Assembly (NCBI RefSeq): GCF_003326015.1
Contig: NZ_CP023860.1
Location: forward strand, 1,550,001-1,614,000
Direction of reading: 5' to 3'
Length of the DNA stretch: 64,000 nucleotides
From: Candidatus Thioglobus sp. NP1
GTDB lineage: Bacteria > Pseudomonadota > Gammaproteobacteria > PS1 > Pseudothioglobaceae
In this document: in pieces, positions 27,982 to 32,140 of the stretch
Layout of the letters: each line of letters opens with the position of its first letter
Position numbering within the stretch: the first letter of the stretch is position 1
Made by a program: the position numbers and the translations under genes
Notes under the pieces: model-generated
Told to the model about the DNA's origin: nothing
Databases searched by the model: none
What the model saw: only the letters and a program-made list of their open reading frames with translations

Positions 27982-28539
27982 ATGGTTAAAGAAATTATTG
28001 AAGATGCAAAGAGCCGAATGACTAAGTCCATTCAATCACTTGAGGGAAATTTTAGTAAGATTCGTGCTGGGAGAGCCCATCCATCCTTACTTGAACAAAT
28101 TAGTGTTGAGTATTATGGTGCTCAAGTTCCCCTCTCTCAAGTTTCAAATATAAATGCTGAAGATTCAAGGACTCTCAAAGTAGCTCCATGGGAAAAAGAC
28201 ATGGTTGGGCCTATTGAAAAAGCAATTTTAACTTCTGATTTAGGATTGAATCCAACCACAATGGGACAAATTATCCGTATTCCACTTCCTCCTTTAACTG
28301 AAGAAAGACGTAAAGAATTAGCGCGAGTAGTTAAAGATGAAGCTGAAAATTCAAAGATTGCAATTAGAAATATCCGTAGAGATGCAATCTCAGACTTTAG
28401 AGAGTTACTAAAAGAGAAGGAAATATCAGAGGACGAATCTCACCGAGCAGAAGAAGATATGCAAAAAATTACTGATCAACATATCGACTTAATTGATAAA
28501 TCTCTAAACGATAAAGAAAATTCACTTCTAGAAATCTAA
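27982..28539 (+). CDS. frr: Ribosome recycling factor
   Basis: Splits the post-termination ribosome together with EF-G. The 185 residues (standard length) include [44 protein letters not shown] and the NIRRDA motif. Co-transcribed with pyrH. Its TAA is immediately followed by the TAA complement of the convergent repeat-protein gene, leaving no gap. Confidence 0.97.
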
Positions 28540-30105
28540 TTACCTCTTAGAGCCTACACAATCTATATATTCTTGCCACCTATTTGCGCTGAATTCAGTC
28601 CCATTAGTTACTTCAGGTCCTACATTATATAAATAGCCTCCGGTAAGTGCTTTTTTGAAAAGCTCAATATTTTTTTCAGATAAGCCTAAGTTTGCTTTAC
28701 AGAAGTCATGAATAGCAACAGTTACAATTTCTCCTGAAATTGCCCCTACAAACTCTTCATCTAGAAGTTTTGAAGATGCTTCTTTTATAAGTTCAACAGC
28801 TATAGTTGGTTGAAATTCACTTGAAAGTTTATATTCGTCTAACTTAAGAAGAAGATCATCAAGGATTTTCGAAACCCTTTGATCATATATTAGCTTAGCT
28901 CTATAAGCAGCAGTTGCAGCAGCAGCAGCAGCTCTCTCATCTTCTAATTTCTGTTGGAAAGCAGCAAGTGCCATTTCTCTTTCAATTTCAGCCATCATTT
29001 GTTGGGCAGCTAACTCAGCTTCAAGTTGAGCCTCAAAAGCAGCAAGTTCTGCCTCAATAAGTGAGTCTCTATAAGCAGCAGTTGCAGCGGCAGCGGCAGC
29101 TTTTTCATCAGCTAGTTTTTGTTGGAAAGCAGCAAGGGCCATTTCTCTTTCAATTTCAGCCATCATTTCAGCAGAAGCCTCATCAGCAAGAAGTTTTGCT
29201 TCAAAAGCTGCAATTTCTTTTTCTGTTTCAAGTTGTGCCATACGAGCTGCAATTTCAGCATCACGTGCCACCTTAGATTGATATACAGCAGTTGAAGCAG
29301 CAGCATCAGCTCTCTCATCTTCTAATTTTTGTTGAAAAGCAGCAAGAGCTGTCTCTCTCTCAATTTCTGCCATAAGTTCATCTGAAGCTTGATCGGCAAG
29401 AAGTTTTGCTTCGAAAGCTGCAATTTCTTTTTCGACCATAAGTTCGGCCATACGAGCAGCCATTTCAGCTTCACGCGCTAACTTAGATTGGTAAACAGCA
29501 GTTGATGCTGCAGCAGCAGCTCTTTCATCTTCAAGCTTCTGTTGGAAAGCAGCAAGGGCTATTTCTCTTTCAATTTCAGCCATCATTTGTTGGGCAGCTA
29601 TTCTGGCTTTATTTGCAGCATCAGAATCAGCAAAGATAAAGATCATCTGCTCAGGATTATCTTCTATTGAGACAATAGATTCTGAACAAGGAACTATAAG
29701 ATCATACACAAACTCTTTGATAGAGGATATTCCTCCATTTTTTCCAGAAATCTTATCATCAATTAAAAATGATTTAAAACCAGTTGTAGCATTTTGATAA
29801 TATATTAGTTTATTTGAATCTTTATCAAAAGAGGAAGTAATTGCTCTGGCATTTCTTGAACTAATTACTACATCACCTTTGATAAATATAGCATTACCAG
29901 TCAAAATCATAGCTGATGTAGGTGAATTATTTTCTAAGGAATTTGACTCAGATTGATCTGAACATGGTTTATATTCTTCATTAATAACAATCTCTAGATT
30001 CTCTTGCAATAGCGACTCATCTAAATTATCTTCTGCAAAAACATTTATTGAAATTAAACAAATTAATAGTGCAGGATTTAAGCCAATTATAAAATTATTT
30101 TTCAT
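28540..30105 (-). CDS. Exported Ala/Glu-rich coiled-coil repeat protein A
   Basis: I do not recognise this 521-residue protein. Seen in it: a signal peptide (MKNNFIIGLNPALLICLISI, cleavage likely after VFA at 24); an N-terminal domain to about residue 165, probably beta-rich, with Cys48 and Cys140; then tandem repeats beginning MAEIERE at residues 175-244 (70 aa), 245-314 (70 aa), 315-370 (56 aa) and from 371. Repeat lengths are multiples of seven, consistent with heptad coiled coil. A linker leads to a 49-residue C-terminal domain (469-517) with Cys at both ends, LGLS, NGTEF and RW. Repeats 2 to 4 are identical in DNA to gene B upstream, and the C-terminal domain is shared. Periplasmic or surface structural roles are possible; nothing proves one. 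Confidence 0.8.
   Translation of the reverse strand: MKNNFIIGLNPALLICLISINVFAEDNLDESLLQENLEIVINEEYKPCSDQSESNSLENNSPTSAMILTGNAIFIKGDVVISSRNARAITSSFDKDSNKLIYYQNATTGFKSFLIDDKISGKNGGISSIKEFVYDLIVPCSESIVSIEDNPEQMIFIFADSDAANKARIAAQQMMAEIEREIALAAFQQKLEDERAAAAASTAVYQSKLAREAEMAARMAELMVEKEIAAFEAKLLADQASDELMAEIERETALAAFQQKLEDERADAAASTAVYQSKVARDAEIAARMAQLETEKEIAAFEAKLLADEASAEMMAEIEREMALAAFQQKLADEKAAAAAATAAYRDSLIEAELAAFEAQLEAELAAQQMMAEIEREMALAAFQQKLEDERAAAAAATAAYRAKLIYDQRVSKILDDLLLKLDEYKLSSEFQPTIAVELIKEASSKLLDEEFVGAISGEIVTVAIHDFCKANLGLSEKNIELFKKALTGGYLYNVGPEVTNGTEFSANRWQEYIDCVGSKR
28897..29423 (-). repeat. 527-bp direct repeat, copy 1 (inside gene A)
   Basis: Base-for-base identical to 30447-30973, exactly 1550 bp away in the same orientation. 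It encodes the end of one 70-residue unit, a full 70-residue unit, the 56-residue unit and the start of the last unit. The match stops at T28896 and T29424 relative to the other copy. Confidence 0.98.
29374..29583 (-). repeat. 70-residue repeat unit found only in gene A
   Basis: First repeat unit of gene A (residues 175-244). Most of it lies outside the 527-bp block; it is similar to the next unit (29164-29373) but differs at synonymous and non-synonymous sites. Gene B has only the last part of an equivalent unit, so gene A carries one extra unit. Confidence 0.8.
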
Positions 30106-30120
30106 AAATTTATTATAAAT

Positions 30121-30150
30121 AAAAAACCCAGAGCAAGCTCTGGGTTTTTA
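30121..30150 (-). terminator. Rho-independent terminator of repeat gene B
   Basis: Arms AAAAACCCAGAGC (30122-30134) and GCTCTGGGTTTTT (30137-30149) pair perfectly around a two-base gap (functional loop of four). On the minus strand the stem ends in a T-rich tract. It follows the gene B stop (30198) and precedes gene A (start 30105), so the two genes are separate transcription units on this evidence. Confidence 0.9.
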
Positions 30151-30197
30151 TAGTAAATTCATAATTATGATTTACAAGTTATTATCAAGCATAAATA

Positions 30198-31082
30198 TTA
30201 AAAAGGATTTACATAATTACTTACACAGTTGGCATATGCATCCCAGCGTGAAGCTCCAAATTCAGTTCCATTAGAACTCTGAGGGCCTTTATTAAATAAA
30301 GTTCCATCAGCCAATGCTGATTCGAAAAGAGCAGTATTTGCATCAGATAGGCCTAAAGCATACTTACATGCTTCATGTGCCGCTTCAGTAACCTCAATTA
30401 CCTCATCTTCGACTACAACCTCTCCAATAACTTCATCCTCAAGTGAAGCTCTATAAGCAGCAGTTGCAGCAGCAGCAGCAGCTCTCTCATCTTCTAATTT
30501 CTGTTGGAAAGCAGCAAGTGCCATTTCTCTTTCAATTTCAGCCATCATTTGTTGGGCAGCTAACTCAGCTTCAAGTTGAGCCTCAAAAGCAGCAAGTTCT
30601 GCCTCAATAAGTGAGTCTCTATAAGCAGCAGTTGCAGCGGCAGCGGCAGCTTTTTCATCAGCTAGTTTTTGTTGGAAAGCAGCAAGGGCCATTTCTCTTT
30701 CAATTTCAGCCATCATTTCAGCAGAAGCCTCATCAGCAAGAAGTTTTGCTTCAAAAGCTGCAATTTCTTTTTCTGTTTCAAGTTGTGCCATACGAGCTGC
30801 AATTTCAGCATCACGTGCCACCTTAGATTGATATACAGCAGTTGAAGCAGCAGCATCAGCTCTCTCATCTTCTAATTTTTGTTGAAAAGCAGCAAGAGCT
30901 GTCTCTCTCTCAATTTCTGCCATAAGTTCATCTGAAGCTTGATCGGCAAGAAGTTTTGCTTCGAAAGCTGCAAGCTCTTGATCAAGATTTTCATAATATG
31001 CTTCATCACGATCATCCCCTCCAGCAAAAACATTAAATGCCATTACAAAAACTATTAAAAATTTAATTAAATTGTTTATCAC
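30198..31082 (-). CDS. Exported Ala/Glu-rich coiled-coil repeat protein B
   Basis: Unrecognised protein of about 294 residues. I start at GTG 31082 because GGAG at 31091-31088 is well spaced before it; an in-frame TTG at 31094 overlaps that Shine-Dalgarno. A signal peptide (hydrophobic run ending MAFNVFA) is followed by a short acidic segment, then the same repeats as protein A (end of one unit, one 70-residue unit, one 56-residue unit, part of a last unit), an acidic valine/glutamate spacer, and the 49-residue C-terminal domain with paired Cys, LGLS, NGTEF and RW. It lacks the N-terminal domain of protein A. Upstream is a very AT-rich tract (31095-31174). Role unknown; a secreted structural or surface protein is a guess. 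Confidence 0.8.
   Translation of the reverse strand: MINNLIKFLIVFVMAFNVFAGGDDRDEAYYENLDQELAAFEAKLLADQASDELMAEIERETALAAFQQKLEDERADAAASTAVYQSKVARDAEIAARMAQLETEKEIAAFEAKLLADEASAEMMAEIEREMALAAFQQKLADEKAAAAAATAAYRDSLIEAELAAFEAQLEAELAAQQMMAEIEREMALAAFQQKLEDERAAAAAATAAYRASLEDEVIGEVVVEDEVIEVTEAAHEACKYALGLSDANTALFESALADGTLFNKGPQSSNGTEFGASRWDAYANCVSNYVNPF
30447..30973 (-). repeat. 527-bp direct repeat, copy 2 (inside gene B)
   Basis: Identical over all 527 positions to 28897-29423, checked line by line. Flanking sequences differ at once on both sides. The reading frame is the same in both genes. Confidence 0.98.
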
Positions 31083-31174
31083 GTTAATCTCCAAAGATTT
31101 GTTAGTTATATATATAAATATATATATGTCTCTTTTATTTTATACTAGATATATTTTTTAAATTTACATAATTA

Positions 31175-32140
31175 ATGAAATTATTTTTTGATAAATTTAA
31201 GCCTTTTTTTTATAATTCTAATCTTGAAGTAATCTCTAATGATTGCATGAAAGCTAGTGTTAAAGCTTTTAAAGTTAAAAATGGTAATGTACCAAAATGG
31301 GATGAAGCGATTGAAACTATCAATACTTTTTCTAAAGGAGAAGTAGTCCTCAATAGTCCATATATTCAAATTAAATGCAATGACGTAAATAGTGCTGAAC
31401 TATTAATTGCATTAGAAAAACTTCTACCATGGAGGAAAGGTCCATTCATGTTTAATGATTTTAAGCTTGAAAGTGAATGGCAGGGAGATTTAAAATGGCG
31501 ACGTATAAGTGAAAATATTAAGCCCTTAGTAAATAAAAATGTTTTAGATGTAGGCTCTGGTAATGGATACTTTACTCTTAGGATGGCAATGGAAGGAGCT
31601 CAAAAAGCACTTGGAATTGATCCTTTTTTATTATTTAATTACCAATTTCAAGCTATAAAGTCATTAATAGATTCTCCTTTAGAGGCTATGATTCTGCCAA
31701 TAAGGCTTGAAGATATGCCTAAAAAGCCAATATTTGATAGTGTTTTTTCAATGGGTGTTCTATATCATCAGAGAGATCATATGAATCATTTAAATAATTT
31801 AAAAGCTATGATGGCTCCAGGTGCTGATCTTATTCTAGAAACTCTCGTAGTAGATGGTGAAAAAGGCTACTCCCTAATACCAAATGATCGATATGCAAGA
31901 ATGAGAAATGTTCACTGCCTTCCAAGTATTGAAACTCTTAAATCTTGGTTGATTGATGCTAACTTTCGAAATATTAAGGTAATTGATATTAATAAGACAT
32001 CCCCAAAAGAGCAAAGAAGGACACCCTGGATTGGTAAAGATGCAGCCTCATTACAAGATTTTCTTGATCCAAATAACTCCTCCTATACAATAGAAGGACA
32101 TCCAGCTCCGACCAGAGTAATTATTATTTGCAACAACTAA
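31175..32140 (+). CDS. cmoB: tRNA U34 carboxymethyltransferase CmoB
   Basis: CmoB uses carboxy-S-adenosylmethionine to form 5-oxyacetyluridine (cmo5U) at the wobble position. 321 residues (E. coli 323), with LPWRKGPF, EWQGDLKW, the nucleotide-binding motif VLDVGSGNGYFTLRM, GIDPFLLF, FSMGVLYHQRD and PAPTRVII near the end. The partner CmoA, which makes the cofactor, is not in the window. Interestingly a tRNA-Leu(UAG), a typical cmo5U substrate, lies 10 kb away. Confidence 0.94.
   Translation: MKLFFDKFKPFFYNSNLEVISNDCMKASVKAFKVKNGNVPKWDEAIETINTFSKGEVVLNSPYIQIKCNDVNSAELLIALEKLLPWRKGPFMFNDFKLESEWQGDLKWRRISENIKPLVNKNVLDVGSGNGYFTLRMAMEGAQKALGIDPFLLFNYQFQAIKSLIDSPLEAMILPIRLEDMPKKPIFDSVFSMGVLYHQRDHMNHLNNLKAMMAPGADLILETLVVDGEKGYSLIPNDRYARMRNVHCLPSIETLKSWLIDANFRNIKVIDINKTSPKEQRRTPWIGKDAASLQDFLDPNNSSYTIEGHPAPTRVIIICNN

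Follow-up and report, generated by a model that had tools for sequence, protein, structure and literature searches.

Homogenised repeats in two adjacent genes

Two neighbouring genes of Candidatus Thioglobus sp. NP1 are identical at every base over their middle parts and differ at their ends, which raises the question of how one stretch of coding DNA came to be shared by two otherwise diverged genes. The locus lies in a 64,000-nt stretch of contig NZ_CP023860.1 (positions 1,550,001 to 1,614,000), referred to here as the window; all coordinates count from its first letter. The features are as follows.

27982..28539, plus strand: frr, anchor gene on one flank (open reading frame and synteny, in every genome whose neighbourhood was read)
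28540..30105, minus strand: gene2, exported protein of 521 aa (open reading frame, orthologs)
28543..28710, minus strand: C-terminal cystine domain of gene2 (match to the C-terminal-domain profile)
28879..29610, minus strand: repeat array of gene2, ~243 residues, Ala/Glu-rich and free of Pro and Gly
28897..29423, minus strand: identical block, copy in gene2, covering 3 of its 4 repeat units
29692..29928, minus strand: small beta-barrel domain of gene2 (predicted structure, pLDDT mostly 80-93)
30122..30149, minus strand: terminator-like hairpin with a perfect 12-bp stem, between gene1 and gene2
30198..31094, minus strand: gene1, exported protein of 298 aa (open reading frame, orthologs in the genus, AlphaFold2 model)
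30201..30377, minus strand: C-terminal cystine domain of gene1 (match to the same profile)
30444..31013, minus strand: predicted single uninterrupted alpha helix of gene1, 190 residues (AlphaFold2 on an alignment)
30447..30973, minus strand: identical block, copy in gene1, spanning essentially all of its repeat array
31175..32140, plus strand: cmoB-like methyltransferase gene (PF08003), anchor on the opposite flank

The gene1 product is ordered as a signal peptide, a mature N-terminus starting with AGGDDRD, a 190-residue helical repeat rod and the C-terminal cystine domain. In the gene2 product, the signal peptide is followed by a beta-barrel N-domain, a longer helical repeat array, a pre-C-terminal helical segment and the cystine domain. 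The hairpin between the genes, ~17 nt upstream of the gene2 ATG, is kept in 8 of 8 aligned genomes (intergenic RNA z of -5.2) and may serve in attenuation of gene2.

The first-pass annotation had claimed that 28897-29423 and 30447-30973 are identical at every base, and the comparison bore this out: 527 bp with 0 mismatches, an exact match that is maximal in both directions, with both copies in frame within their minus-strand genes. The repeat is by far the longest of the 64-kb window, where all other exact repeats reach 40 bp at most, and the lack of any difference over 527 bp bounds the divergence at ~0.6% (95%). At the block edges the identity falls abruptly to ~33%, and comparison of the gene1 and gene2 flanks over 15-90 bp gives ~30-47% identity, which is near random. 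The C-terminal domains share 26 of 48 residues from Cys to Cys, or 28 of 52, in agreement with the ~55% (27 of 49) given earlier. The claim that units differ within a gene and match between genes held as well. Copies spaced 210 nt within one gene are ~81% identical in the window, and gene2 unit 1 and its closest gene1 counterpart disagree at 22% of third positions, whereas matched units of gene1 and gene2 show 0 differences, third positions included. The N-terminal parts, described as unrelated, are so in NP1 but not in several congeners, where gene2 starts with a signal peptide and GGDD like gene1; gene1 and gene2 therefore descend from one ancestral gene.

Origin and distribution of the gene family

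A profile of the C-terminal domain (51 residues, two cysteines) detected the domain in 76 of the family's 83 genomes, a count that includes G013, where the match is of 15 residues and lies at a contig end, and in 11 of 11 genera. No match came from the 365 other Gammaproteobacteria sampled, and a profile of the whole short protein matched only NP1 among 398 genomes sampled from the phylum. Sequence searches of Pfam, NCBIfam and PDB returned no family for the gene1 protein, the gene2 protein or the C-terminal domain, and a literature search on SUP05 and SUP05 symbionts found neither protein. The domain is undescribed in Pfam and appears to be family-specific. Two candidate assignments were rejected: the cwf21 domain (PF08312), a compositional helix match at 15.4 and 22.4 bits (Pfam gathering cut-off, 23.2), and the LptA/LptD N-terminal domain (PF03968) at 10.6 and 14.4 bits (gathering cut-off, 20.4).

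The loci that were read in the ten other genera hold a single gene between frr and cmoB, mostly of 120-165 aa, whose product consists of a signal peptide, AGGDDRD and the C-terminal domain. The AGGDDRD start was present in 68 of 83 genomes by a DNA pattern. These data show that the ancestral locus held one short gene, flanked by frr and cmoB, for a protein with a signal peptide, a start of AGGDDRD and a C-terminal domain with two cysteines. Retention of this undescribed, synteny-locked exported domain even in 1.0-Mb single-contig genomes is a sign of a needed role.

An intermediate state is seen in two genus g7 genomes, in which the insertion point is the same and holds a few short repeats. 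In the genus of NP1, the gene is usually a pair, and each copy is lengthened by an Ala/Glu-rich repeat array. Genomes G010, G024 and G026 have apparent single-gene states, that of G026 being inferred from two contig ends. The apparent absence of the gene from G009, G011, G018, G020 and G028 was rejected as missing sequence, frr being missing there too, and in G013 the contig ends at the locus.

The AGGDDRD start also occurs away from this locus. A second such site is found elsewhere in the genome of many congeners, and one unlinked small protein (L125, G000:C1:1103306-1103482) combines a signal peptide and an AGGDDRD start with a hydrophobic C-terminal segment.

Predicted structure of the two proteins

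AlphaFold2 modelled the gene1 array as one continuous helix with block means of pLDDT mostly between 87 and 95, the first and last blocks being lower, followed by a three-helix tail of low confidence that includes the C-terminal domain. At 0.15 nm per residue, the predicted helix would be ~28 nm long. The gene1 protein contains a 197-residue stretch without Pro or Gly, and across nine species this run measures 194-350 residues. Heptad or hendecad periodicity in the rods did not exceed background, and the rod is therefore not called a coiled coil. The molecular role may be that of a spacer, an exported rod whose head is capped by a cystine.

The gene2 N-domain is predicted as an 80-residue beta barrel and occurs in 14 of 83 genomes, only in the genus of NP1. 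Single gene2 orthologs gave weak profile matches to phrog_438 (E 2.6e-4) and phrog_460 (E 8e-4), and the NP1 protein itself gave none. In Foldseek searches, the domain matched BFVD (E 1.6e-4, 1.7 A over 72 columns), and nothing significant was found in PDB; comparison with the T4 baseplate in PDB gave a middling Z of 7.5. Among phage records, tblastn found only 31.6% identity over 38 residues (E about 2), and one viral-contig scan found no encoded relative of the domain; a recent transfer from phage is therefore not claimed. The weak but repeated profile and fold matches suggest that the beta barrel gained by gene2 may resemble the baseplate-wedge and structural beta barrels of marine T4-like phages (phrog_438, phrog_460; T4 gp7). 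Unlike those modules, it is a single 80-residue barrel on an exported bacterial protein, with no phage genes among the identified neighbours.

Concerted evolution of the repeats within the genus

From 63 repeat cores extracted from the genus, 56 units were compared, drawn from the 11 genomes with units of both genes (NP1 and 10 congeners). Thirty-one of the 56 units were closer to the paralogous gene in that genome than to the same gene elsewhere, which is a descriptive figure, as units within a genome are not independent; in contrast, 0 of 25 C-terminal domains were closer to the in-genome paralogue. The earlier proposal that homogenisation is confined to the repeat region was thus supported. 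By genome, units closest to the in-genome paralogue made up 7 of 7 in NP1, 11 of 12 in G019, 4 of 5 in "Ca. T. singularis" PS1, 3 of 5 in G027 and 2 of 3 in G025, with lower shares in G021 (2/4), G015 (1/4) and G004 (1/6). In G002, G005 and G006 there was no sharing and every unit was nearer its ortholog, so the homogenisation is episodic. On a maximum-likelihood tree of the units, the genome label changed 23 times, compared with 40.2 after shuffling, and 0 of 200 shuffles were as low; this grouping comes partly from near-copies, so that it adds support and is no independent test.

The shared sequence is not the same from species to species. PS1, with an ANI of 75% to NP1, has its own 225-bp exact match between gene1 and gene2, unlike the NP1 block in sequence, and exact matches between the two genes measure 147 bp in G019 and 127 bp in G027. 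Several congeners carry exact internal repeats of 77-308 bp, and unit number and rod length differ between species. The pattern is one of concerted evolution by gene conversion, independently repeated in several species though not in all. The locus documents coding repeats of adjacent bacterial genes evolving in concert, seen again in several free-living marine species and with the gene ends as a negative control.

Near-identity of the repeats across the genus also leaves its mark on assemblies, breaking contigs at the locus. Draft contigs end inside it in 15 of 18 repeat-bearing congeners, compared with 2.6 expected (P about 3e-11, from rounded contig counts and a break list read by hand), and in two congeners without repeats it is intact, with no contig break. 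Database entries for the gene pair are therefore usually truncated, most draft assemblies being broken there.

Probable gene conversion and its alternatives

The 527-bp block is best explained as a tract of gene conversion between neighbouring paralogues, both coding for a Thioglobaceae-specific exported protein, and to this reading we assign a probability of roughly 0.8. The difficulty of assembling the locus, with breaks in most drafts, might suggest instead that one copy was overwritten by the other during assembly or polishing. NP1 (CP023860), however, was assembled from PacBio RS II reads at 564x with a subread N50 of 3,817 bp (PMC6424205), above the 2,077-bp span of both copies, so a misassembly over these 2.08 kb is improbable; the assemblies of PS1 (SOLiD mate pairs and PCR gap closing; PMC4616169), G019 and G027 have the same pattern in different sequence. 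We therefore regard an artefact as very improbable. Selection on protein or DNA sequence alone, which the compositional constraint of the Ala/Glu-rich repeats might seem to favour, is contradicted by the synonymous positions, all of which agree between the genes, whereas about one fifth of third positions differ between adjacent units of a single gene; we give it practically no weight. A recent whole-gene duplication, after which the ends diverged fast or were replaced, would account for identical middles and different ends if one genome were viewed alone. Across species, however, the C-terminal domains form old, gene-specific lineages and the gene2 N-domain is present in 14 genomes of the genus, which means that the gene ends predate the identical middle, and this history is if anything a little less credible than an artefact.

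The first-pass annotation had left the choice between gene conversion and unequal crossing-over. The tandem direct orientation and the changes of unit number within genes speak for crossing-over, but a single event between the genes would either delete 1,550 bp, fusing the start of gene1 to the end of gene2, or add a third gene. The ends of gene1 and gene2 are intact and the fused form was not seen, so that half of the proposal fits less well and is unlikely, although less so than the three readings above. Non-reciprocal conversion is favoured because both genes retain their own ends. Where the unit number of a single array changes, as in the identical 60-bp tandem units of G005 gene1, slippage or crossing-over within that array is more likely. 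The data would also fit a rearranged array acquired from a donor cell within the population.

Under gene conversion, homologous recombination between the direct repeats would copy array sequence non-reciprocally while selection preserves the distinct gene ends. Folded as a helical rod, the arrays would space the cystine head from the N-terminal part, either in the periplasm or on the cell surface, and recombination would also tune the length of this rod. Copying would more likely run from gene1 to gene2, a direction suggested by one linker motif, AAYRDSLxEAELAAFEAQ, which is found in gene1 of most relatives and in gene2 mainly where the arrays are homogenised. More speculatively, the pair may act as a built-in donor and acceptor, in which recurrent conversion and crossing-over between the arrays constantly reset rod length and sequence in two exported proteins whose heads differ and keep length variation standing within populations. 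We consider this possible but doubtful; if true, single populations of an abundant marine clade would hold standing variation in rod length.

Comparison with known systems

The closest concept is that of the Periscope Proteins (SasG, Rib, Sgo_0707 and CdrA; PMC8201768), which have DNA-similar repeats, an elongated exported rod, a length changed by recombination and a terminal domain that is kept, features that the present proteins would share. In that class repeat number varies between strains of one species; here it varies between species. Long and highly similar tandem DNA repeats, one criterion for that class, are found here at ~81% identity in the window and as exact copies of 77-308 bp in congeners. 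Globular repeats are another, and most, though not all, Periscope repeats are described as globular (PMC8201768), whereas the gene1 rod is predicted to be one continuous 190-residue helix. Periscope Proteins have a cell-surface anchor and a ligand-binding head, whereas a signal-peptide-like start and the mature AGGDDRD are all that is seen here. A further difference is that homogenisation acts not only inside a gene but also between neighbours. Long extracellular proteins are likewise encoded by Giant1-5 of Apilactobacillus kunkeei (PMC12863079), which are adjacent, duplicated genes. Those giant genes show no sign of recent gene conversion between them (PMC12863079), whereas gene conversion is the main feature of the present pair, whose proteins are ~10x shorter.

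Repeat copies and variants elsewhere in the genus

Related repeats were also observed outside the gene pair. A third, unlinked copy of the repeat and C-terminal domain lies beside msrA-like and thiF-like genes in G019 (L060) and G020 (L057), and its units in G019 are identical or nearly so to gene1 and gene2 units. In G018 (L061), a VIT/VWA-type protein contains a piece of the same repeat close to its C-terminus, and a sortase-like gene comes next. Within the pair itself, gene2 of G019 (L045) is read in two frames with apparent frameshifts inside the repeats, from either sequencing error or real inactivation. Gene1 of G005 (L047, 3516-3884) contains tandem identical 60-bp units (20-aa EKEIAEFEAQLEADLASDAL), which suggests a very recent expansion inside the array.
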